Assembly: GCA_017525035.1 (NCBI GenBank) | Contig: JAFXTH010000004.1 | Coordinates: 1-48,384 of the forward strand | Source: Bacilli bacterium | GTDB taxonomy: Bacteria; Bacillota_I; Bacilli_A; RF39; UBA660 | Direction: 5' to 3' | DNA: 48,384 nt | Part shown: in pieces, positions 529-47,515 of the stretch | How positions within the stretch are numbered: position 1 is the stretch's first letter | How the letters are laid out: every line of letters starts with the position of its first letter | Translations under genes and position numbers: made by a program | The notes under the pieces: model-generated | What the model was told of the DNA's origin: nothing | Database searches by the model: none | Seen by the model: only the letters and a program-made list of their open reading frames with translations

Positions 529-978
529 TTATTTTCTTTTTGTTAAAGGTTTATATTTATCAAGATGTTTCCACCTAAGTGTAGCAGGAGCTTCAATACT
601 GTCTACAAGATTAAGTGGTAAATACATTTTCTTAGCTTTATCGTATATTCTTAAATATTGTATTTCTTGGGGTGCTACTCTATCAGTTAAATAGAATTCA
701 TTGCAATTTTGTTTTAACCATTTTCTGTGTTTTAAATTAAACTTTAGTAATTCTAATTCATTTACATCTTTATCTTCATATAAAGCGTCCATCCAATCTG
801 GTGCACTTCCAAGGTAATCAAAGAAAAATATTCCTTCGATATTATCTCCAACTGATTTGCTACGCTCACCACAAAGTGGTAATAATCCTTCTTTGCAGAT
901 TTTTTCCATATTATCAGTAGTAGTTATATGAAAAGCATCATGATCAGTTTGCCAAATAAATTCTTTAAGTATAATCAT
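529..978 (-). CDS. Conserved hypothetical protein, possible ADP-ribosyltransferase-like fold
   Basis: A 149-residue soluble protein with no signal peptide, starting at 978 behind GGGAGTGATT. The beginning (residues 17-40) reads FHITTTDNMEKICKEGLLP, then a GERS segment. A His near the N-terminus followed by a helix and a KEGL/P turn is the layout seen at the start of several small ADP-ribosyltransferase-like or RNA 2'-phosphotransferase-like domains. No complete catalytic triad can be seen, so this is only a suggestion. It has its own extended -10 promoter and sits alone between the zinc peptidase and the S51 peptidase. I do not recognise the family with certainty. Confidence 0.55.
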   Translation of the reverse strand: MIILKEFIWQTDHDAFHITTTDNMEKICKEGLLPLCGERSKSVGDNIEGIFFFDYLGSAPDWMDALYEDKDVNELELLKFNLKHRKWLKQNCNEFYLTDRVAPQEIQYLRIYDKAKKMYLPLNLVDSIEAPATLRWKHLDKYKPLTKRK

Positions 979-1002
979 GTAATCACTCCCTGACAGTCAC
1001 TT

Positions 1003-1011
1003 ATTATAACA
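1003..1011 (-). promoter_or_regulatory. Extended -10 promoter of the 529-978 gene
   Basis: The minus strand reads TGTTATAAT (TGn plus a perfect -10), about 25 bases upstream of the start codon. No good -35 hexamer is present, as usual for extended -10 promoters. Confidence 0.6.
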
Positions 1012-1029
1012 CAAAACTAAATTTATAGA

Positions 1030-1053
1030 TAATAAAACCCGAATACTCGAGTT
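1030..1053 (-). terminator. Intrinsic terminator after the S51 peptidase gene
   Basis: A 7-bp stem AACTCGA/TCGGGTT (one G-U pair, loop GTAT) begins at the stop codon and is followed by a T-rich tract. Confidence 0.6.
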
Positions 1054-1822
1054 ATTTTGTTACTAATTCAGTTAAAGGTTTAAATTCTTTTGATACATCT
1101 AATGCTTCGTCAGTATATTTATTGTCTTTCCAATAACACTTTCTTACAAAACCTTCAGGGCTACTTGTTAATATTCTATATTCGTCGTCAATTATTTCGA
1201 TTGCGGCATTACGTGAAGTTAAGAATCCAACTTGATCACTAGTTTTCAAGATTTCTTTAAGTGATAAATCTCTTCCTTCTTTTTCTCCATGTGGAGTAAA
1301 ATGACCATCGATGAATCCTAATGCTTTAACTCCAATTAATGGTTGATCATCACCATATAGCATTTGCATATAGTCTGTTGTACATTCTTTAAACCAACAG
1401 TTACCTCCTGCAGATAAGCCACACATTACTTTACCTTTTTGCCAAGCATCCTTTAATATCTCACCAAAACCTGTTTTCTCCCAAAGCCTTAGCATGTCGA
1501 CAGTGTTTCCACCACCTTCATATATTATGTCAGCCCAATCAATTAGTTCTTGTGTTTTTGCTTTATCAACTAATTCAGAGCTTTTTAGGTTTTTACATTC
1601 GCAATGATAAAGATCTCCATATATTCTTTTCATTAACACATAATATGAATCCTGCCATTGTCCTACTGATGCATGTGCTAAAAACAGAAAGTTAGGTTTT
1701 TCTTTACCGGTTAGTTTAATTATTTCTTCATCTATAGCTTGGTTATCATAAGTACTGATTGTACCATCAGCTTTCTTATTACCACAACCTCCACCACCTA
1801 TTGCTACTATCTTCTTTGTCAT
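1052..1822 (-). CDS. Peptidase E-like protein (family S51, type 1 glutamine amidotransferase-like fold)
   Basis: 256 residues, cytoplasmic. Family S51 enzymes are serine dipeptidases and relatives, such as cyanophycinase, that use a Ser on a nucleophile elbow. Here the elbow is CGLSAGGN with Ser137. It is preceded by the GGGNT loop (residues 103-107) and followed by a GHFTPHGE segment that would carry a catalytic His. The length is close to that of Bacillus YgaJ-type proteins. It starts at 1822 after GGAGATATTT. The gene lies between two terminators and appears monocistronic. The exact substrate cannot be told. Confidence 0.85.
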   Translation of the reverse strand: MTKKIVAIGGGGCGNKKADGTISTYDNQAIDEEIIKLTGKEKPNFLFLAHASVGQWQDSYYVLMKRIYGDLYHCECKNLKSSELVDKAKTQELIDWADIIYEGGGNTVDMLRLWEKTGFGEILKDAWQKGKVMCGLSAGGNCWFKECTTDYMQMLYGDDQPLIGVKALGFIDGHFTPHGEKEGRDLSLKEILKTSDQVGFLTSRNAAIEIIDDEYRILTSSPEGFVRKCYWKDNKYTDEALDVSKEFKPLTELVTK

Positions 1823-1841
1823 AAATATCTCCTTATAGTAT

Positions 1842-1868
1842 AAAAAGTGTTTTTAAAGCACACTTTTT
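1842..1868 (-). terminator. Terminator after the small HAD phosphatase gene
   Basis: A 9-bp perfect stem AAAAAGTGT/ACACTTTTT with a 9-base loop. T-runs on both sides mean it could work in either direction; it lies 16 bases past the stop codon at 1885. Confidence 0.7.
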
Positions 1869-1884
1869 GTTTTATATACTTGTA

Positions 1885-2343
1885 TTAGTCAACTAATTCT
1901 GAGTCTTGATATAAGATAATATCTCTTTTACTCCTAGATAATACTTCTAAGACTTTATTATCATCATCTAGCATTATTATCAATTTATCTGTATCTAAAT
2001 TTTCTAAGAAGTTTAATTTAAGTTCTGCTGATGAAAATCCCGTTACTGATTCTTTAGATATTACATTTCTATTTTCTTTTTTAAAAAATGGCGCATATAA
2101 ATCTAACCATTCATTCTTTTCTTGTATCTGATAATCTTTTCTACAAATAGATAAGATGTTCAATGTTACGTTTTCAAGTTCAGATACTTTTCTTAATGTT
2201 TCTATATTTGTCTTCATTGGTCTTTTGTTTTTAAAGTCTAATGGTCTTCCAAAATCATATGACGCTATTACACCATCCATGTCTACAAATAATAATACTT
2301 CTTTATCTTTATATTTTTCTTTCATTAATTCATAAAAATGCAT
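1885..2343 (-). CDS. Small HAD-superfamily hydrolase, 5'-nucleotidase-like
   Basis: The HAD motif I reads LLFVDMDGV with the nucleophile Asp21 and acid/base Asp23. A late acidic motif, IIMLDDDN (about residue 125), matches HAD motif IV. The small cap and 152-residue length recall the 5'(3')-deoxyribonucleotidase/YqfW-type group, but the substrate is not certain. The longer reading frame begins at 2355; I chose the ATG at 2343 because GGTGATG lies at the right distance before it. A terminator follows. Confidence 0.75.
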   Translation of the reverse strand: MHFYELMKEKYKDKEVLLFVDMDGVIASYDFGRPLDFKNKRPMKTNIETLRKVSELENVTLNILSICRKDYQIQEKNEWLDLYAPFFKKENRNVISKESVTGFSSAELKLNFLENLDTDKLIIMLDDDNKVLEVLSRSKRDIILYQDSELVD

Positions 2344-2370
2344 AAACATCACCATCTAAATTATAACATA

Positions 2371-2394
2371 AGAAAAAGTCCTTTAGTAGGACTT
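2371..2394 (-). terminator. Terminator after the lipoprotein gene
   Basis: Stem AAGTCCT/AGGACTT with a 5-base loop, followed by a T-run in the direction of transcription. It overlaps the stop codon. Confidence 0.75.
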
Positions 2395-2869
2395 ATCCAA
2401 ATATTAATGCCCATTCATCACCAAAGTTACAATAAGCTATACTTTTTGCAAAATCTAACTTATCTTCTTTGATGTTCCCTTTTAATTCAAAATAACCATC
2501 AACAACAACACATTTTTTTGGTTCTTTATAATTTTCAAATCCAGATAAGTATTCTTTAACTGCTTCAAATTCTTCATCTGTTGGATCTAATTCTTCTTTT
2601 ACTACAGCAATACCTGTAACGTCATCCCCATAATCTTCTTTAAGACTTTTCAAATAACCATCTAAGAATTCTTGGGTATATCTTTCACCAAATGCTTCTT
2701 TTAAGAAACTTGGAAGTACCGATAACACTCCTTCTCTATCTGCCTTCATTACAGAATCTGTATATTTTGTTAACATTTCTTGAGCGCTTTTTTGGGGTTT
2801 TTGATCTCCACATGCAGTTACAAATATTCCTGCAAAAATTAAAAGTAATACTAATATTTTCTTTTTCAT
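2393..2869 (-). CDS. Predicted lipoprotein of unknown function
   Basis: 158 residues. The N-terminus MKKK plus a hydrophobic stretch ends in the lipobox FVTAC, so Cys20 should be lipidated and the protein anchored outside the membrane. The mature part is acidic, Asp/Glu/Lys-rich and without a motif I know. It contains two further Cys residues. It starts at 2869 behind an ideal AGGAGG. It sits 9 bases after the GNAT gene and is likely co-transcribed with it. Function unknown. Confidence 0.8.
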   Translation of the reverse strand: MKKKILVLLLIFAGIFVTACGDQKPQKSAQEMLTKYTDSVMKADREGVLSVLPSFLKEAFGERYTQEFLDGYLKSLKEDYGDDVTGIAVVKEELDPTDEEFEAVKEYLSGFENYKEPKKCVVVDGYFELKGNIKEDKLDFAKSIAYCNFGDEWALIFG

Positions 2870-2877
2870 ATATCCTC

Positions 2878-3354
2878 CTATATTAATTTAATCATATCAT
2901 GTAACCTGTTATGGTATTCATTTTTTGTATAAAATTTTATTGCATTATCATTATATCCAAATACTTCTAAAAGTACTGCTTTGCATCCGATAGATTTTAA
3001 ATATTCTTCCATATGTTTTATAAGAATCTTTCCAATGCCTTTTCCTCTTGTGTTTTCAGTAACTATTAATTCAAGTATTCTTCCTCTTTTAGGTGCTTTG
3101 AAATCATAAACATCTATTTCTTCATTATTTACTATTCCTGCGATAAGACCAAGTATCTTTCCATCTTCTTCATATAAAAACATTTTACCATTATGATTCT
3201 TTAGTTTTCTTAATGTTTTATCTAAATATTTTCCTCCATAACCTTTAGTAAAACGATTATATTTTTCTTTATCAATACTTGCAATATATTTTTGAAGTTC
3301 TTCAATTAAAATAACTGCTTCTTTTTTATATTTTTTATTATACTCTATTACCAT
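2878..3354 (-). CDS. GNAT-family N-acetyltransferase
   Basis: 158 residues with the acetyl-CoA-binding motif A: a beta strand ILELIVTE followed by RGKGIG, then a helix and the closing FYTKNEYH segment typical of GNAT enzymes. The acetyl acceptor cannot be predicted. The open frame extends up to 3378, but the ATG at 3354 has a GGATGGG site and begins just before the first beta strand, so I prefer it. The start then overlaps the end of the upstream gene by 17 bases, suggesting translational coupling. Confidence 0.85.
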   Translation of the reverse strand: MVIEYNKKYKKEAVILIEELQKYIASIDKEKYNRFTKGYGGKYLDKTLRKLKNHNGKMFLYEEDGKILGLIAGIVNNEEIDVYDFKAPKRGRILELIVTENTRGKGIGKILIKHMEEYLKSIGCKAVLLEVFGYNDNAIKFYTKNEYHNRLHDMIKLI

Positions 3355-4150
3355 TTCCCATCCTTTTTTCTTTTGCAATATAATCTTTCATAGATTTATC
3401 AAGTTCGATATCGCCGTAATCGTGTGGTTCTTGAACTAATTGTCCATTACAATCTGTATATGTTTCCCAATCATTTGGTGCAGTGAATATCTTCATAGAT
3501 ATCATGTCATTAATTCTTGCTCCTGTATAAAAATTAATTGTTCTTGTAGACATTGCTTCAATTGGCATATCTTTATCAATTATTAATGCAAAATGAGCAT
3601 TATTGTTTGTTGCTTTTCTTGCATAGTATATAAATGATTCTAAGTTAATGAATTGTAATGCTATTGAAGTAATAGGTCTATATTGCACACCATCTTTTAA
3701 AAGTTCTATATAATTTTGTAAATAATAATCTTGTGATTCTTCTATTAGGCTTTGTGCATCTTCTAAAGATTTAACTTGTACTTTTTCTCCTGTTGCTTTT
3801 GTTAAATATCTAGTTAATGGATCCATTCTAACGTCTACTGGTTCATATGTTCTTGCTTCCATTAATCTTTTTACTATTGAATCTGCTACTGATAATTGAA
3901 AATATTCACTACTTGATATTTTCAACTGTCCTATATCTTCTTTATTTGGTTTTGCACCTTGTACTGGTATTCCATAAGGTTTTACTAGTATTGCAGCAGG
4001 CTTGTTAGTATCAAATGTTATTGGATTTTCTTCAACTATTGTATCTATTAAATCTCTTCTTTTGGCATTATTATATCCATATATCATATGATGCCTATCT
4101 TCACCCATTATTTGTTTTTTCAAATGTTCTTTGTATTTATATTCTTCCAT
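3338..4150 (-). CDS. Conserved hypothetical protein, co-transcribed with the GH10-like gene
   Basis: 270 residues, soluble, no signal peptide or membrane segment. I recognise no family. The middle (about 95-140) is helical and charged. The later part contains a hydrophobic strand, HFALIIDKDMPIEA, followed by TRTINFYTGARIN, which might be a nucleotide- or ligand-binding core but has no standard motif. Its start is 15 bases after the stop of the GH10-like gene. A longer frame starts with a GTG at 4159, but the ATG at 4150 sits 5 bases behind AAAGGTGAGG and is the better start. Probable operon: GH10-like gene, this gene, GNAT, lipoprotein. Confidence 0.7.
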   Translation of the reverse strand: MEEYKYKEHLKKQIMGEDRHHMIYGYNNAKRRDLIDTIVEENPITFDTNKPAAILVKPYGIPVQGAKPNKEDIGQLKISSSEYFQLSVADSIVKRLMEARTYEPVDVRMDPLTRYLTKATGEKVQVKSLEDAQSLIEESQDYYLQNYIELLKDGVQYRPITSIALQFINLESFIYYARKATNNNAHFALIIDKDMPIEAMSTRTINFYTGARINDMISMKIFTAPNDWETYTDCNGQLVQEPHDYGDIELDKSMKDYIAKEKRMGNGNRV

Positions 4151-4165
4151 AACCCTCACCTTTAT

Positions 4166-5662
4166 TTATAATGTAGCCTGCGGTTTTTGTGGCTCTATTT
4201 TTTTCATTAATTGTTTTTTATGTGTTGGAAATAATCCACCCAAAGCAGATGGTATTTCCTGAGCTGTTTTAATTACTCCACTTTTTAATGCATTCGATCT
4301 TATTCTTTCTAGATTACTATCAACTGCATCTGTTAAAGACCAATATGTTACTCCACTAAGTTTTACTCCACTTTCTCTAATTGTCCTAGATACATCTTGT
4401 ATCCTTTCCCCCTTAGATTTATATGCTTGTTCTTCTGTTACTTTTCTTTCTGGCCCATACACAACAGGAACTTCACTCTTACCAAGACTCATATCGAATT
4501 CAGTTATTTGAATGTTCTTTCCTTTTTCGTCTTGTAGTTTTTTTAAATCCATAAAACATCTTTTAATATTTTCTGTTCTTTCTCTAAATGTTATATGCAT
4601 TTGAGTTCCTAAAGTATCTATTGCTCCTGGTGCTAGTTCATCTATTCTATCTAAAGTTTCAAGAACTTTCTTTCTTCTTTCATCATCTTCTAAGAAAGGT
4701 TCATTGTATACATAACTAACTCCCTCTGGTTTATGTTCAAAAGCATATTTAAATACTTCCATTAATTCTTCTAGAGTTATTCCATAATTCTTTTCCCAGA
4801 TATTATAGTAGTTTCCATTTTCATCTTTATCAAAACTTATTATTTCATTAAATAAATCAACTGCTTTAATTACTGGTCTTCCATACTTCTTGTTTGTTTC
4901 ACTAATAAAATCAATTGTATGTTCTACATAAGATCTAATTATATCTAGTATTTCATTTTTATCTTTACCCCTAAATTCTCTTAAAGGTTCTTTTACTAAT
5001 AAAGAATGGAACCTAACTTGTTTATGATTCTTAACTGCAAAAGCAATGTCTCTATCTGCAGCATAATAGTCATATCTTTTATCTGGATCTTTTTGACTAA
5101 AGAATCCATTAACAACATTATAAATTCTTCCTGATCCTATTAACATAGTATCAAATGTTTGAAGTTGTTCATTTAATAAAACCATTTCATCATACATAGC
5201 TGGATCTTTTAGTTGATCTCTTTCTCTTGATACAATACGATGACTCAATTGGAAGATTTCATCACATTTATCTGGATATTTAGTTTGAATATATAATTCA
5301 ATCCACTTCATCGAATTAGGTCTATTACTTAATATTACACCAGTTAATATATCCATATCCTCTGGTCTAATGCCAATTGCTTTTAAATTATTTCTTACAG
5401 CATTTTCCATATTCTCATAATGAGAAACTAATGAGTCCTGATATCTTTTAAAAACTGCTTTTTTAGCATCTTCTAAATCCATTGTATATAACTCTTGAAT
5501 TTGTTTATCATCATAACTTGTTCTAATTTGATCACAAAACAATATGAACAATAACAATTCATCCATACATGTACATTGAATAATTGATAATAAATCAATT
5601 TGCTCCGAACTAAAGTAACCACCAGTTGATGGCGTATCTACATCTAATAAGAATGATTCCAT
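4166..5662 (-). CDS. Divergent intracellular glycoside hydrolase family 10 (xylanase-like)
   Basis: 498 residues. From about residue 180 on, the hallmarks of a GH10 TIM barrel appear in order: VRFHSLL (His219), the acid/base Glu273 in DLFNEI, a YNEP strand (319-322), GTQMHI (Gln354, His356), the nucleophile Glu388 in ITEFDM, and TYWSLTDAVDS (Trp441). GH10 enzymes cleave beta-1,4-xylan chains with retention. There is no signal peptide, so it should act in the cytoplasm, perhaps on imported oligosaccharides. The first 180 residues are an extra helical region I do not recognise. The usual VWH of the GHTLVWH motif is lost, so the substrate may differ. Start at 5662 behind AAAGAGGTGAT. Confidence 0.8.
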   Translation of the reverse strand: MESFLLDVDTPSTGGYFSSEQIDLLSIIQCTCMDELLLFILFCDQIRTSYDDKQIQELYTMDLEDAKKAVFKRYQDSLVSHYENMENAVRNNLKAIGIRPEDMDILTGVILSNRPNSMKWIELYIQTKYPDKCDEIFQLSHRIVSRERDQLKDPAMYDEMVLLNEQLQTFDTMLIGSGRIYNVVNGFFSQKDPDKRYDYYAADRDIAFAVKNHKQVRFHSLLVKEPLREFRGKDKNEILDIIRSYVEHTIDFISETNKKYGRPVIKAVDLFNEIISFDKDENGNYYNIWEKNYGITLEELMEVFKYAFEHKPEGVSYVYNEPFLEDDERRKKVLETLDRIDELAPGAIDTLGTQMHITFRERTENIKRCFMDLKKLQDEKGKNIQITEFDMSLGKSEVPVVYGPERKVTEEQAYKSKGERIQDVSRTIRESGVKLSGVTYWSLTDAVDSNLERIRSNALKSGVIKTAQEIPSALGGLFPTHKKQLMKKIEPQKPQATL

Positions 5663-5685
5663 AATATCACCTCTTTAATTATAGC

Positions 5686-5717
5686 ATAAAAAATAGTAGA
5701 TAAATATATCTACTATT
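5686..5717 (-). terminator. Terminator after the second unknown paralogue
   Basis: An 11-bp perfect stem AATAGTAGATA/TATCTACTATT with a 4-base loop and a run of T. It overlaps the stop codon at 5713 and insulates the GH10-like gene. Confidence 0.85.
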
Positions 5718-6582
5718 CACTCTTTTCAGTATTTATCGCTTTATTTGTTTTTTGTTTAACTGCACCTTTTTCTTCTTTTGGCATAAATGCTTGATACTTA
5801 TATCTTCTAGCAAGATTTTCAGTTAATATAAGTGGCATTACATCTTGTGTGAATGGTAATGTTTTATTAATTAAAAATCTAAAACGATTAAAAGCATCTA
5901 TTCCCATGTCATTCTTTGAACCTAACTCTTCTACTGTTCCTGTTGCAAATGAAATTTTGCTTTTAGTTACTACATTATTCTTAAGAGTTGTTTCATCAAT
6001 TGCTAAGCGATTTTCAAACATTTGATATCCTGTAATTCTTTGTTCAAAATTTGGCATAGGTTGTCTATCTCTTTTATCATATGCACTTATTTTATATGTA
6101 TACTCTCTCATGTAATTTGGTAATCCCCAGTTTTTACATGTCACATTTTCTATAGTTTCAAAATTTTCTGTTTCATCATTAAATTCTAAATAGAACTCTC
6201 TATTGTTTACTCTAAAACTCCAATAGTTTCTATACATATTATTCCAAATTGATATACCAGCAAAATCTCCAAGATCTAATGCTACATGAATTGGATCTTC
6301 TTGTTTTATATCAAAGTTATATGAAAAACCTTTGTGATCTTTTGATCTATTGTCTTTATAAAAAATTTTATCACTATCTATTACTGTACGATAACCATAT
6401 ATTGGTGTAAATTCATTCTCTTTATTACCATTATTAAATTTTTTATATTTGATATACCCAACTGGATTTCCTAATTCATCTAATATAGTCCATTTATTAT
6501 TTGCATCTGGTCCTTCTAAAGTATAACCAAGAAGTTCTACAAATAATTTTTCGCTTTCAATGTTATGCTCTAGTGCTTCCAT
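5713..6582 (-). CDS. Unknown protein, paralogue of the upstream gene (copy B)
   Basis: About 289 residues, soluble, rich in aromatic residues and predicted beta strands. I do not know the family. It is a paralogue of the gene at 6563-7363. Both carry, near the C-terminus, the pattern GTVEE(L/M)..K..GI.AF..F, then LPF...(V/I).PL(I/L)..E....RY..Q.F.PK. Both also have an early strand pair ending in G(K/N).VG.IK. The start at 6582 follows GGGGG, and overlaps the end of copy A by 20 bases, so the two are translationally coupled. The tail is Lys-rich. Confidence 0.7.
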   Translation of the reverse strand: MEALEHNIESEKLFVELLGYTLEGPDANNKWTILDELGNPVGYIKYKKFNNGNKENEFTPIYGYRTVIDSDKIFYKDNRSKDHKGFSYNFDIKQEDPIHVALDLGDFAGISIWNNMYRNYWSFRVNNREFYLEFNDETENFETIENVTCKNWGLPNYMREYTYKISAYDKRDRQPMPNFEQRITGYQMFENRLAIDETTLKNNVVTKSKISFATGTVEELGSKNDMGIDAFNRFRFLINKTLPFTQDVMPLILTENLARRYKYQAFMPKEEKGAVKQKTNKAINTEKSE

Positions 6583-7363
6583 TTTTTCCCCCATTAATAG
6601 TTCTTACTAATGCCTTTGCTTTTGCTTTAGTTTTCTTTGGTCTAAAGATTTGTGCACCATATCTTTCTGTTGCTTCTTCATTCATTAAAAGTGGTACTAT
6701 ATTTTCTTTAAATGGTAAATCTTCCCTTAATAGTCTTTCAAAAGTTTTGAAAGCCTTTATTCCATCCTCATGTTTTAAGGCCATTTCTTCTACTGTACCT
6801 TTTACTATATCTCTTTTACAATTATATGATTTATGAGATGCTTCTCCTCTAGTTACAGTAAGTTCTAATCTTTCTGGATTTGTTCCTAATAAATGAACAC
6901 CTTTTATTTTTTTCAAATAATTTCTTGATGAAGTTGGACGACGATAATTTAATAAATAAGTATATTCTTTACTATCATACTTACTTGCTGGATTTCTATA
7001 CCATACTATTTCTTCTATACCAAAACCACGTGGGAAAGTGGCATAGTGAAATACCATACTATAGTTATCAATTCTAAATGATGTCATATGCTTACCACTA
7101 ACTTGTGCTTTTGGAAGTTTACCAAGTGCAAATTCAATTGTTACTGGATAATCTCCACCTTCTAAATATTTAAATGATACTTCATAGTTTGGATCATAAA
7201 AACCATTGTCACCATCCATAACTGGGAAGTGTTTAATCATACCTACTTCTTTCCCAGCTGTATTAAATATTCTATAAACATCTTTGTTTAATTTTTTTAC
7301 CGTATAATCAATTGATGATAATAGCTCTATTGATTTTGCTAAATTTGGATGAATGTTTTCCAT
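6563..7363 (-). CDS. Unknown protein, paralogue of the downstream gene (copy A)
   Basis: 266 residues, soluble, beta-rich, without signal peptide. It shares its overall plan and especially its last 80 residues with the following gene (5713-6582), so the pair arose by tandem duplication and then diverged strongly. The C-terminus is basic (Lys/Arg-rich after residue 240). It starts at 7363 behind GAGGGGG and has a well-formed promoter that overlaps the terminator of the PFK gene. No known motif or catalytic pattern was seen. Confidence 0.7.
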   Translation of the reverse strand: MENIHPNLAKSIELLSSIDYTVKKLNKDVYRIFNTAGKEVGMIKHFPVMDGDNGFYDPNYEVSFKYLEGGDYPVTIEFALGKLPKAQVSGKHMTSFRIDNYSMVFHYATFPRGFGIEEIVWYRNPASKYDSKEYTYLLNYRRPTSSRNYLKKIKGVHLLGTNPERLELTVTRGEASHKSYNCKRDIVKGTVEEMALKHEDGIKAFKTFERLLREDLPFKENIVPLLMNEEATERYGAQIFRPKKTKAKAKALVRTINGGKNGSTRA

Positions 7364-7389
7364 TACAATACCCCCTCAAATTGCTGTAT

Positions 7390-7418
7390 ATTATAACACA
7401 ACAATTAAAAAAAGTAAA
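7390..7418 (-). promoter_or_regulatory. Promoter of the tandem unknown genes
   Basis: Extended -10 TGTTATAAT with a TTTACT -35 at 17 bases. The -35 lies inside the 3' arm of the PFK terminator stem, so the two signals share bases. Confidence 0.6.
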
Positions 7419-7435
7419 ACATTTCTGTCTTACTT
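7405..7435 (-). terminator. Terminator of the PPi-PFK gene
   Basis: Stem AAGTAAGACA/TGTTTTACTT (one G-U pair, GAAA tetraloop) followed by seven T. It overlaps the stop codon. Confidence 0.8.
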
Positions 7436-8662
7436 CTTCATATTTATGTGTTGTGGAACACCATTTTTATATATTTGTTTAACTTCTCCTTGGATTAATG
7501 GTCTTAAATAATTTACTAATTCGTCTTTAACATAATTGTTATCAACATCTATCCATTCAAGAGGTATTTTCTTTTCAATGTTAGCAATTTTATGAATGTC
7601 ATCAAATATTTTATATTCAATTTTGTATGGATCATTTGATACACGATCCATGTATACCATTTTACCTGATTGCCCATCAAAAGCAAGTTCTGCACCCTTA
7701 ACGCCACAGTTATATGCTTCGTCTAAATCTGTTTTAGATGCTAAATGAGCTGCTGCTCTTTGTAATGTTGAAAGTGTTATTGCTCTTGTTTTAATTCCTA
7801 ACTTTTCTTTTAATATCTTGCATAATGTTTCAGCGCATCCTGCTAATTCTTTATGTCCAAATGAATCTACCGCTAAGTTTGATGCATTCAACTCACAAAT
7901 GAATTTATCATCTTCAGTTTTAATTCCTTCTGATACTGCAATTACTAGTGATGGTTTCTTCTTTAATAATTCAGTTGTTTCTTCAACAAATGTATCTAGG
8001 TTAAATGGAATTTCTGGTAAGTAAATTGCATCTACTCCTTCGCATGTTTCATCTTTTGCTAAAGCAGCAGCTGATGTTAACCATCCAGCATGTCTTCCCA
8101 TTATTTCAACAATTGCTACGGTTGGTTTAGTAGTACCATAACAATTATTATCTTGAATAACTTCTCTTAATGTTGTTGCAATATACTTACAAGCACTTCC
8201 AAATCCAGGACAGTGATCTGTTATTGGTAAGTCATTGTCTATTGTCTTTGGTACTCCAATGAAGTTTTGTCTTTTCTTTTTTAATTCTGCATAATCAGAT
8301 AGTGATTCAACTGTATCCATTGAATCATTACCACCTATATATATAAGAGAATCAATAGAATGTTTATCTAATATTTCAAATACTTTTTCATAAGTTTCTT
8401 CATGATCTTTAATGCTTCCTAATTTAAAACGACAAGATCCTAAGAAACTTGATGGTGTTCTTTTTAATAATTCTAAGTTATCTTTATCTAAAAAGTATTC
8501 ATCTAAATCAATAATATGGTCTTGTAATAATCCTTCAATACCATTTACCATTCCATATACTTTATCAAATCCTTTTTTCTTTGCTCCATAATATACACCA
8601 GCAAGTGATGCATTAATTACAGATGTTGGTCCACCTGATTGACCTACTATTAAGCTCTTCAT
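7430..8662 (-). CDS. pfp: Pyrophosphate-dependent 6-phosphofructokinase
   Basis: 410 residues. Makes fructose 1,6-bisphosphate from fructose 6-phosphate in glycolysis. The phosphoryl donor is read from two sites: the ATP enzyme has GGDGS and PGTIDND, whereas here residues 110-114 are GGNDS (Asp113) and residues 138-144 are PKTIDND (Lys139). These are the known marks of pyrophosphate use. Asp142 is the catalytic base, and MGRHAGW (188-194) binds the sugar phosphate. The reaction is reversible and saves ATP, common in fermentative anaerobes. Start at 8662 behind GGAGTGATAAT; monocistronic with its own terminator. Confidence 0.92.
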   Translation of the reverse strand: MKSLIVGQSGGPTSVINASLAGVYYGAKKKGFDKVYGMVNGIEGLLQDHIIDLDEYFLDKDNLELLKRTPSSFLGSCRFKLGSIKDHEETYEKVFEILDKHSIDSLIYIGGNDSMDTVESLSDYAELKKKRQNFIGVPKTIDNDLPITDHCPGFGSACKYIATTLREVIQDNNCYGTTKPTVAIVEIMGRHAGWLTSAAALAKDETCEGVDAIYLPEIPFNLDTFVEETTELLKKKPSLVIAVSEGIKTEDDKFICELNASNLAVDSFGHKELAGCAETLCKILKEKLGIKTRAITLSTLQRAAAHLASKTDLDEAYNCGVKGAELAFDGQSGKMVYMDRVSNDPYKIEYKIFDDIHKIANIEKKIPLEWIDVDNNYVKDELVNYLRPLIQGEVKQIYKNGVPQHINMKK

Positions 8663-13809: not shown

Positions 13810-16302
13810 CTACTTCCCACAACATTGTTTGTATTTTTTACCAGACCCACATGGACATGGATCGTTTCTTCCAACTTTTTTAGATCTCTTTGGTTCATTC
13901 TTAACTGCATCTTTTCCATCGTTAGTTATCTTATTTTTAGAAACTTCTTTTCTTTCAATGTTTTGTTTAACTTCTGCTCTCATTAAGAATGTTGTAACAT
14001 CTCTATCAATCTTTTCATTCATTTCATCGAATTGTTGGAATCCTTCAACTGTATATGCAGTTAATGGATCTGTTTGACCATAGCTTCTTAAATGAATTCC
14101 TTCTCTTAAGTGTGACATTGTATTGATATGTTCTGTCCAATACTTATCTATTGTATTAAGAGTAATAACTTTTTCAAATTCATCTCTTATTTCTTTTGGC
14201 ACTACTATAATCTTTTCTTCATATTCCTCTACTAATTGATTGTAGATAAATTCGATAACTTCATCTTCATTCTTATCATATAAAACTTGTGGTTTGATAT
14301 CTCTTTTTAATAAGTTTTCATTTACAGTTTCTACTATTTCATCAATATCATCATGATTTAATTTTGCTTCTACTTGTAAATGCTTAAATACTAGAGTAGA
14401 TACATGATTCTTTAATATATCAAGTACTGTTTCGTGAATAGATTCATTATCAAGTATTTCATTTCTTCTTCCATACATGATTTCTCTTTGATTGTTCATT
14501 ACGTCATCATATTGTAATAATTGTTTTCTTATATCAAAGTTATTTCCTTCAACACGTTCTTGTGCTTTTGTTAATGCTTTTGAGAATGTTTTATTTTTGA
14601 TTGCTTGGTCTTCTGCAAGTCCTAGAGTCTGCATCATTCTCTTTATTCTTTCACTTCCAAAACGAACCATTAATTCATCTTCCATAGAAACGAAGAATTG
14701 AGTATATCCTGGATCTCCTTGACGTCCTGAACGTCCTCTTAACTGGTTATCAATACGACGTGATTCATGACGTTCTGTACCAAATACACAAAGACCTCCA
14801 AGTTCTTTAACACCTTCACCAAGTTTAATGTCAGTTCCACGTCCAGCCATGTTAGTTGCAATTGTTACTGCACCTTTTTCACCGGCTTTAGCAATTATTT
14901 CTGCTTCACGTGCATGGTTTTTAGCATTTAATACTTCATGAGGTATTTTTCTTTTATTTAATAAGTTATCAATTAATTCGTTTGTTTCGATTGCTATTGT
15001 ACCAACAAGAACTGGTTGTCCTTCTTTATGTTTATATTCAATGGCATCGATTAATGCTTTGTATTTCCCTGCTTGTGTTGTATAAATTAAATCTGGTTCA
15101 TCAATTCTTATTATTGGTTTATTTGTTGGTATACAAATAACATACATGTTATAAATATTTCTAAACTCTTCTTCTTCTGTTTTAGCTGTACCAGTCATAC
15201 CTGATATTTTTTTGTACATTCTAAATAAATTTTGGAATGTAATAGTTGCTAAAGTTTTTGTTTCTTGATTAATCTTAACTCCTTCTTTAGCTTCTACTGC
15301 TTGATGTAATCCATCGCTCCATTGTCTTCCCTTCATTAAACGTCCAGTGAATTGGTCAACAATTACGATTTCTCCATCTTGAACAACGTAATCTACATCA
15401 TTCTTCATTCCATAGTTAGCTTTTAATGCTTGATTAATATGATGTACTAAAGTTGTTTGTTCAATATCATATAAGTTATCTACTTTAAATGCTTTTTCAG
15501 CTTTCTTTACTCCTTCTTCTGTAAGAGTTACTCCTTTAGTTTTTTCATCATATAAGTAATCTTCATCTGCTTTTAATCTTTTTGCAAAGCTATCAGCATC
15601 TGTATACATTGAAGCAGCTTTTAATTCACCACCTGAAATAATTAACGGTGTTCTTGCTTCATCTATTAATACTGAGTCAGCTTCGTCGATTATAACGAAG
15701 TTAAGTCCTCTTTGAACTCTATTTTCTTTCTTAACAACCATGTTATCTCTTAGATAATCGAAACCTAATTCATTGTTTGTTGAATACATAATGTCACAGT
15801 TGTATTGATCTCTTTTTTCTTGTGGTGTTAAGCTTCTTAAGTTTGTGCCTACTGTTAAACCTAAGAATCTATGAATGCTTCCCATCCAGTTACTATCACG
15901 ATCTGCTAGGTATTCGTTAACAGTAATAATGTGTACACCTTCACCGCTTAAAGCGTTAAGGTATGCTGGCATTGTTGCAACTAAAGTTTTTCCTTCACCT
16001 GTTTTCATTTCAGCTATATTACCATAGTGTAATGCAATACCACCAATTATTTGTACTCTAAATGGTTTTAATCCAATAACTCTCATTGCAGCTTCTCTTA
16101 CTGTTGCAAAAGCTTCAGGTAAGATATCATCAAGAGTTTCACCATTTGCTAATCTTTCTTTAAATTCTGGAGTCTTTGCTTGTAATTCTTCATCAGATAA
16201 TTTTTGATATTCTTCATCTAATGCTTCAACTTTATCTGCAAGTTCTCCAAACTTTTTTAATTCTTTATATTCATGATCAAATAATTTCTTAAATAAACCC
16301 AT
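13810..16302 (-). CDS. secA: Preprotein translocase ATPase SecA
   Basis: 830 residues, full length. SecA is the ATPase motor that pushes unfolded proteins through SecYEG. Walker A is MKTGEGKT (about residues 98-105), Walker B is VIIDEADS, and the helicase-type motif VTIATNMAGRGTDIKLG and RGRSGRQGDPG are present. The wing and scaffold regions follow. The C-terminus ends in the zinc motif CPCGSGKKYKQCC that binds SecB or the ribosome. The start at 16302 follows GGAGATGATAAC. It has its own promoter and a strong terminator. In B. subtilis too, secA lies near hpf (yvyD). Confidence 0.98.
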   Translation of the reverse strand: MGLFKKLFDHEYKELKKFGELADKVEALDEEYQKLSDEELQAKTPEFKERLANGETLDDILPEAFATVREAAMRVIGLKPFRVQIIGGIALHYGNIAEMKTGEGKTLVATMPAYLNALSGEGVHIITVNEYLADRDSNWMGSIHRFLGLTVGTNLRSLTPQEKRDQYNCDIMYSTNNELGFDYLRDNMVVKKENRVQRGLNFVIIDEADSVLIDEARTPLIISGGELKAASMYTDADSFAKRLKADEDYLYDEKTKGVTLTEEGVKKAEKAFKVDNLYDIEQTTLVHHINQALKANYGMKNDVDYVVQDGEIVIVDQFTGRLMKGRQWSDGLHQAVEAKEGVKINQETKTLATITFQNLFRMYKKISGMTGTAKTEEEEFRNIYNMYVICIPTNKPIIRIDEPDLIYTTQAGKYKALIDAIEYKHKEGQPVLVGTIAIETNELIDNLLNKRKIPHEVLNAKNHAREAEIIAKAGEKGAVTIATNMAGRGTDIKLGEGVKELGGLCVFGTERHESRRIDNQLRGRSGRQGDPGYTQFFVSMEDELMVRFGSERIKRMMQTLGLAEDQAIKNKTFSKALTKAQERVEGNNFDIRKQLLQYDDVMNNQREIMYGRRNEILDNESIHETVLDILKNHVSTLVFKHLQVEAKLNHDDIDEIVETVNENLLKRDIKPQVLYDKNEDEVIEFIYNQLVEEYEEKIIVVPKEIRDEFEKVITLNTIDKYWTEHINTMSHLREGIHLRSYGQTDPLTAYTVEGFQQFDEMNEKIDRDVTTFLMRAEVKQNIERKEVSKNKITNDGKDAVKNEPKRSKKVGRNDPCPCGSGKKYKQCCGK

Positions 16303-47291: not shown

Positions 47292-47331
47292 AAAAAAAAG
47301 CACGATATATTCTAAGGACGAATATACCGTG
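47292..47331 (-). terminator. T-box terminator hairpin
   Basis: Stem CACG-G-TATATTC/GAATATA-T-CGTG (12 bp with one G-U), 7-base loop and eight T. The T-box sequence overlaps its 5' arm, allowing the antiterminator form. Confidence 0.9.
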
Positions 47332-47515
47332 TTACCACCTTAATTCATAGATTAAATCTATCTCATTATTTTAACGCTTTTAGCGTACTTACCTAAATAT
47401 CAGTAAGTCTGTTCCGGAGCCATTTTCAATAATCCTCTATGTCTTCTTTCACCTTACAAGACTCTCTAAAGATAGATTCATATATCTCTTTCCTTCAACA
47501 CATTTAATTAATTAT
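47292..47515 (-). promoter_or_regulatory. T-box riboswitch, methionine type
   Basis: Minus-strand leader of about 225 bases. Features in order: AGAGAG (GA motif), the stem GTCTT/AAGAC with loop GGTGAAAG, the specifier region TTGAAAATGGCTCCGG with AUG at 47423-47421, base-closing pair AGTCT/AGACT, the hairpins CTTAC/GTAAG, ACGCT/AGCGT and ATAGATT/AATCTAT, the T-box AAGGTGGTAACACGG (47341-47327) with UGGU facing an ACCA tRNA end, and a terminator. Uncharged tRNA-Met would stabilise the antiterminator and permit transcription of the EF-Tu-like ORF, dut and metG. Confidence 0.88.

Follow-up and report, generated by a model that had tools for sequence, protein, structure and literature searches.

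The window, which is the whole stretch of DNA analysed here (48,384 nucleotides), contains a GH10-like gene at positions 4166–5662 on the minus strand. The gene starts with ATG and encodes 498 aa (stop included), as judged from the open reading frame, Pfam and the model described below. A ribosome-binding-like sequence is located 5′ of the ATG. The Pfam profile GH10 (PF00331) matches residues 194–446 with 76.5 bits (E = 2.8e-21), above the curated cut-off of 22.1, which places the protein in the GH10 sequence family. Solved GH10 xylanase chains are matched by sequence using phmmer (best E 2.2e-12), and no NCBIfam match near a cut-off was obtained for this protein. The gene is the single GH10 hit in its own genome, a 1.25-Mb draft of 24 contigs with 88% completeness.

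The next gene downstream (3338–4150, minus strand) encodes 270 aa from the ATG at 4150 and begins 15 nt after the GH10 stop. Pfam gives it no more than a hit below the cut-off (E 0.15), and NCBIfam gives no match, in agreement with the linkage to an unknown gene that had been noticed from the letters of the DNA (the sequence-only reading). On the upstream side, 5713–6594 and 6563–7363 encode two related proteins (25% identity), which have one homologue in G010, a genome of the same genus; they show no Pfam match and only sub-cut-off NCBIfam hits. Between the nearer paralogue and the GH10-like gene, an AT-rich 10-bp hairpin followed by a T-run is located at 5692–5717 (minus strand). It is terminator-like according to the sequence, and it fails the G+C rule of the terminator scan. 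The two paralogues thus adjoin the gene as had been described, but their linkage to it is weak, because the terminator-like hairpin lies between them and most of the focal homologues defined below have other neighbours. A TGcTATAAT box at 5686–5678 was considered as a promoter of the gene itself; at a distance of 15 nt, it lies so near the ATG that it does not convince, and it is not claimed. No sugar transport gene is present among the ten genes scanned (529–8662), as the sequence-only reading had stated. A phosphofructokinase gene is located at 7430–8662, and elsewhere in the window (47311–47507, minus strand) a T-box leader scores above the Rfam gathering score.

Relatives and conserved neighbours

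A profile search of genome contigs using the alignment detected 27 loci, and a single-protein search of the same contigs found nothing. Together with the window, these loci give 28 focal rows. Two of the rows are cut by contig ends: L072 lacks the first strand, and L069 lacks the C-terminus. The records of the 27 loci are titled Bacilli, Bacillota, Tenericutes, Clostridia, Clostridium sp. and, in one case, uncultured bacterium, and several seem to come from rabbit gut (judging from the name of the 'Lapin' isolates) and rumen. Among 395 genomes of the class, the alignment profile matched eight, and full-length focal matches (E below 1e-200) were found in three. PF00331 matched 33 of 386 genomes of the bacterial family, many of them with other architectures. 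In viral contigs, 17 pattern matches were obtained and no relative was confirmed; no relative was matched in plasmids. The phage set gave one weak match, MT839786.1 (L129). This record, filed as bacteriophage, encodes a canonical GH10 with a signal-like start, which adjoins amylase-like and sugar-transporter-like genes, and we read it as a mislabelled bacterial contig. Carriage by phage or plasmid was rejected. One focal protein (L078:8001-10355) is 784 aa long owing to an extra C-terminal region, for which only a sub-cut-off Pfam hit (NIF) was obtained; by eye, we take this region to resemble an ADP-ribosyltransferase-like fold.

The tree comprises 57 rows (271 columns). Partial, degenerate, duplicate, multi-domain or wrong-frame rows had been removed beforehand (six in all: L009, L049, L093, L096, L034 and L089), and L019, L098–L104 and L106 were never in the tree. 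The 20 Bacilli-type and 8 Clostridia-type focal rows group together (98/94). The focal group adjoins a group of tail-anchored proteins, inside a clade (100/100) that also contains the GH10-PHP proteins. Short intracellular GH10s are located outside this clade. Five GH10s of the same class serve as the outgroup (L091, L092, L094, L095 and L097); they are labelled secreted by us, and L091 and L092 have no clear signal in the frames read. These five share PF00331 and the catalytic motifs with the focal rows but lie outside the focal clade.

The GH10-like gene, the 270-aa gene and the genes after it (GNAT, HAD-like and peptidase S51) are found together again in G010, and the window and G010 are the two of the 28 focal loci in which the 270-aa gene family was seen. 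In six of the eight Clostridia-type loci, a gene of the c2 family (about 150 aa) is located directly downstream. In six of the 28 focal loci (window 13810–16302, L058, L059, L062, L075 and L080), the GH10 gene has a secA gene upstream of it in the same orientation, with a spacing of about 0 to 8 kb in searched flanks of unequal length. The records of these loci are titled Bacilli, Bacillota, Clostridia and Clostridium sp. We take the position near secA as an ancestral position or insertion site rather than a proven functional link. The focal neighbourhood is otherwise little conserved.

Predicted fold and the helical insert

An AlphaFold2 model was built on eight homologues (pLDDT 85.5, pTM 0.87), and strands were assigned by DSSP. 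Eight core strands are present in the model (13–17, 172–175, 215–218, 265–272, 316–322, 350–356, 383–390 and 435–440). The top structural match is 1us3 (Z 27.6, r.m.s.d. 2.9, 311 residues aligned), and the predicted model has the GH10 (β/α)8 topology. All of the 50 structural alignments shown (VIA-align) are to GH10 proteins, one designed enzyme included, with Z of 26.2–27.6. In the predicted model, Glu273 comes directly after strand 4, the position of the GH10 acid/base, and Glu388 occupies strand 7, the position of the nucleophile. The acid/base pair Asn272-Glu273 (4844–4849, minus strand) forms the NE motif, and Glu388 (4499–4501, minus strand) is in the ITE motif; both sites are occupied identically in all 28 focal rows. 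The sequence-only reading had described a strongly diverged GH10 barrel with both catalytic glutamates retained, and had proposed structure prediction and superposition on GH10 as the check, with glutamates misplaced in the barrel as counter-evidence. The Pfam match, the Z values and the predicted strand positions of the two residues bear this description out. According to sequence and model, the gene product is a genuine GH10-fold protein that looks unlike a standard xylanase.

The region before the Pfam match had been described as an unknown N-terminal domain of 180 residues. This description was not supported. The 50 structural alignments begin at model residue 1–9, and residues 13–17 at the extreme N-terminus (5612–5626, minus strand) form barrel strand 1. 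The N-terminal region thus consists of strand 1 and an internal helical insert, and a separate N-terminal domain is ruled out by the model and the alignments. The insert comprises about residues 30–155 (5198–5575, minus strand; the exact limits are our reading) between strand 1 and the helix preceding strand 2. Its size is about 130 residues, and the helix 156–165 follows it. The FDT/FNS motif comes after this helix, as in the secreted rows, and on this ground we take the helix to be barrel helix 1. In β/α barrels, a loop between strand 1 and helix 1 would sit on the catalytic face.

The insert folded alone gave a poor model (pLDDT 71, pTM 0.50), for which Foldseek found no match with E ≤ 0.001. 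Of the insert positions, 9% are conserved in 27 or all of the 28 focal rows, compared with 24% of the barrel positions. A conserved patch is present at the C-terminal end of the insert, with His141 and Glu147 in 28/28 rows, Asp149 and Gln150 in 27/28, and Arg148 in 26/28. The segment from strand 1 to strand 2 is 134–213 residues long (median 155) in the 27 complete focal rows (L072 left out), and 154–172 residues long in ten GH10-PHP rows. Its length is only 19–20 residues in four secreted rows (L097 left out), 59–68 residues in the three short intracellular ones, and 89 and 180 residues in two other rows, so that the segment lengthens along the series from secreted to focal rows.

Active site, cell location and host sugar metabolism

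According to PMC6163442, the conserved GH10 residues of subsite −1 are His104, Trp108, Asn152, Glu153, Gln228, His230, Glu259 and Trp308, and those of subsite −2 include Glu67, Asn68 and Lys71 (TmxB numbering). These residues were transferred by motif, without alignment to that protein, and the mapping of Trp308 is the least sure. The columns of Glu67 and Asn68 were read from the printed alignment of the focal rows. According to this mapping, seven of the eight −1 residues are present in the window protein, and Trp108 is gone. None of the 28 focal rows deviates at His219, Asn272, Glu273, Gln354, His356 or Glu388, and Trp441 is retained in 27. Gln354 and His356 are on strand 6 (4595–4603, minus strand).

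Several residues of the xylan glycone site are lost. The former RGHTLVWH motif is now R217-F-H-S-L-L-V-K224 (4991–5014, minus strand), in which the first His is kept, Trp is lost and the His of VWH is replaced by Lys. The VWH substrate loop, which the sequence-only reading had regarded as lost, is indeed replaced by LVK. The place of Trp108 is V, T or D in 28/28 focal rows, and it is Trp in 5/5 secreted rows and in the three short same-family relatives (L007, L008 and L045). In place of the VWH His, all 28 focal rows have Lys or Arg (K/R224). The remodelled turn of residues 174–181 (LIGSGRIY; 5120–5143, minus strand) corresponds to TPENxxKW of xylanases. In the focal rows, the place of Glu67 is an alignment gap (28/28), and that of Asn68 is Gly in 21, Ala in 6 and Glu in 1. 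Of these three −2 residues, just the Lys71 place stays basic (R179 in the window protein; R/K179 in 28/28 rows). At the presumed +1 Tyr, Pro is present in 28/28 focal rows, and the same column in the five secreted controls contains Tyr in two and Phe in three.

According to hydropathy, no signal-like start is present in the 27 focal rows with a complete N-terminus, and no membrane tail in the 27 with a complete C-terminus. The window protein has a single hydrophobic stretch (residues 24–42), which lies within the modelled helices after strand 1. The absence of a signal peptide and the intracellular location, both proposed earlier, are thus supported as far as sequence goes, and by the same hydropathy measure the protein resembles the IXT6 type in having no signal peptide.

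The intracellular xylanases IXT6 (1n82, 2q8x) and TsXylA (3w24) are among the best structural matches. They share the barrel fold (Z 26.7–26.8, with 26.8 for 1n82; 292–301 residues aligned), the catalytic Glu pair and the intracellular location with the focal protein. One alternative is that the focal protein is an intracellular GH10 of the ordinary kind, which acts on xylo-oligosaccharides imported by the cell and is only fast evolving. The nearly intact −1 site and the Trp of VWH kept in the three short relatives are consistent with this explanation. The identity to IXT6 and TsXylA is, however, 17–18%, the focal protein has the insert of about 130 residues, and Glu67, Asn68 and Trp108 are replaced in every focal row. 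The hosts also differ: xylose isomerase above the cut-off was found in 0/23 of the carriers searched (of 28; mostly draft MAGs, in which missing genes may be assembly gaps), with one sub-cut-off partial match, and GH43 likewise in 0/23. In control genomes, xylose isomerase was matched in 6/14 and GH43 in 5/14. The xylan or xylo-oligosaccharide metabolism expected of a host of an endo-xylanase was therefore not seen in the 23 draft genomes searched. We consider the xylo-oligosaccharide explanation unlikely. The glycan is probably other than xylan, as had been suggested from the sequence; the wall or internal polysaccharide named there as an example is conjectural.

Sister proteins and the proposed function

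Within the 100/100 clade, GH10-like proteins with a HisJ-like PHP domain are present in related genomes, with sizes of about 870–1100 aa (L022/L046, at L046:7632-10820 in G003, which is of the same genus, L010, L011, L012, L013, L016, L021, L023, L030 and L033). The PHP assignment is based on Pfam PF02811 in L046 and L010, the two scanned, and the remaining ones were assigned by inspection of their sequences. The HisJ type is assigned from NCBIfam hits below the cut-off and PDB 2yxo. These proteins resemble the focal rows in clade and in the similar long insert, and they differ in the extra PHP domain and in two active-site replacements, namely the −1 His by Asn and the Trp of VWH by Phe, both in 10/10 rows. 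No paper pairing glycoside hydrolase family 10 with a PHP domain was found. Literature searches on intracellular, cytoplasmic or tail-anchored GH10 and on RF39 GH10 gave no title on the focal family among the matches listed, and the family may be described elsewhere.

A PHP query matched 4/23 carriers versus 0/23 non-carriers, a contrast that is biased in that the non-carriers were picked from the Bacilli family, the carriers include Clostridia, and G003, a same-genus non-carrier with a GH10-PHP gene, was left out. The five places in carriers include three GH10-PHP proteins (G740, G747 and G750); G750 additionally encodes a free-standing PHP-type protein (L134), and the remaining place is in G752 (L133). 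In L130 (G740) and L131 (G747), the GH10 half has lost the catalytic motifs and the PHP motifs look intact, and an intact focal enzyme is present in the same genomes. Read by eye, L050 (G034) seems to show the opposite pattern, in which the PHP-like half is eroded.

Degenerate relatives also occur elsewhere in the clade: L027 and L032 have lost the NE pair, and L034 has lost its Glu. A non-catalytic role is possible because L027, L032, L034 and L130, which are of the same clade, lost catalytic residues. The barrel would then bind a glycan or metabolite and signal or scaffold without hydrolysis. For the focal protein we regard such a pseudo-enzyme as quite improbable, because all 28 focal rows agree at the catalytic positions despite a variable insert (9% conserved versus 24% of the barrel).

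According to hydropathy, a C-terminal membrane tail is present in 9/56 family rows, none of them focal. The GH10-like proteins L086, L087, L017, L020, L027, L032, L035/L043, L010 and L050 are tail-anchor-like, with almost no residues past the helix. The tails of L017 and L020 are similar (66% identity) though their GH10 parts are apart in the tree. Pfam hmmscan gave no GH10 for L043 and L086, and both were placed by similarity to the focal protein; L043 was also picked up by a six-frame PF00331 search. The N- and C-terminal modules of the sister proteins were considered as a general targeting system and found no support: the tail profile matched 1/39 genomes and the N-terminal profile 2/59, one of the latter being itself a GH10-PHP gene, where short module profiles miss much. 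The membrane tails, the upstream secA and the c2-family gene of the Clostridia-type loci would be in line with a housekeeping role, in which the enzyme would act on a glycan that the cell itself links to its membrane or wall, working at the cytosolic membrane face with partner proteins. The patchy distribution (full-length matches in three of the 395 class genomes) is unlike an essential wall function, and the neighbourhood is otherwise little conserved. Such a role for the focal enzyme is very doubtful.

We presume that the focal protein is a cytoplasmic retaining β-glycosidase of GH10 fold for a short, non-xylan glycoside, with a probability of about 0.6. According to sequence and model, the barrel is complete, with the Asn-Glu acid/base after strand 4 and the nucleophile Glu on strand 7. 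Gln-x-His and the further His, which would hold the −1 sugar, are invariant in the 28 focal sequences. The expanded loop between strand 1 and helix 1, with seven or eight helices, may lie over the glycone side of the cleft. This insert may take the place of the xylan −2 subsite, which has lost Glu67, Asn68 and the Trp-His of VWH. The open cleft would thereby become a pocket for a short glycoside instead of a xylan chain. Hydrolysis would proceed in the cytosol by the normal GH10 double displacement, and the enzyme would lie outside xylan catabolism. The rebuilt site has conserved basic residues (R/K179, K/R224 and mostly R148), which may fit an anionic or phosphorylated substrate. These three positions together with the sister fusions suggest an anionic substrate, and a phosphorylated one is made conceivable by the PHP fusions and the GH10-PHP proteins in G740, G747 and G750. 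Evidence to the contrary is that most GH10-PHP fusions are encoded in genomes lacking the focal enzyme, one of which (G003) was omitted from the controls of the PHP query.

A wider reading is that small-genome Bacilli and Clostridia have a cytoplasmic pathway, so far undescribed, for a phosphorylated or anionic β-glycoside. A GH10 barrel with a helical cap that bears basic residues in place of the xylan −2 site would cut the bond, and the barrels of sister lineages would be fused to a HisJ-like PHP phosphatase or tail-anchored on the inner side of the membrane. G740 and G747 each encode both the intact focal enzyme and a GH10-PHP protein with an eroded GH10 half and a largely intact PHP half, as if both activities might cooperate. 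This pathway is tentative and rather unlikely; it is made less probable by the origin of the ten GH10-PHP rows in the tree, all from genomes without any focal-type hit.

The best-known members of GH10 are xylanases, and automatic annotation by GH10 similarity would probably label the focal protein a xylanase. This GH10 branch, which looks confined to the cytoplasm and in which the xylan glycone site is lost and a helical insert is gained, would offer a case for studying how a classic family changes its substrate, among carriers in which no xylose isomerase above the cut-off was found (23/28 searched). The focal enzyme is also a testable handle on the carbohydrate chemistry inside uncultured small-genome bacteria.
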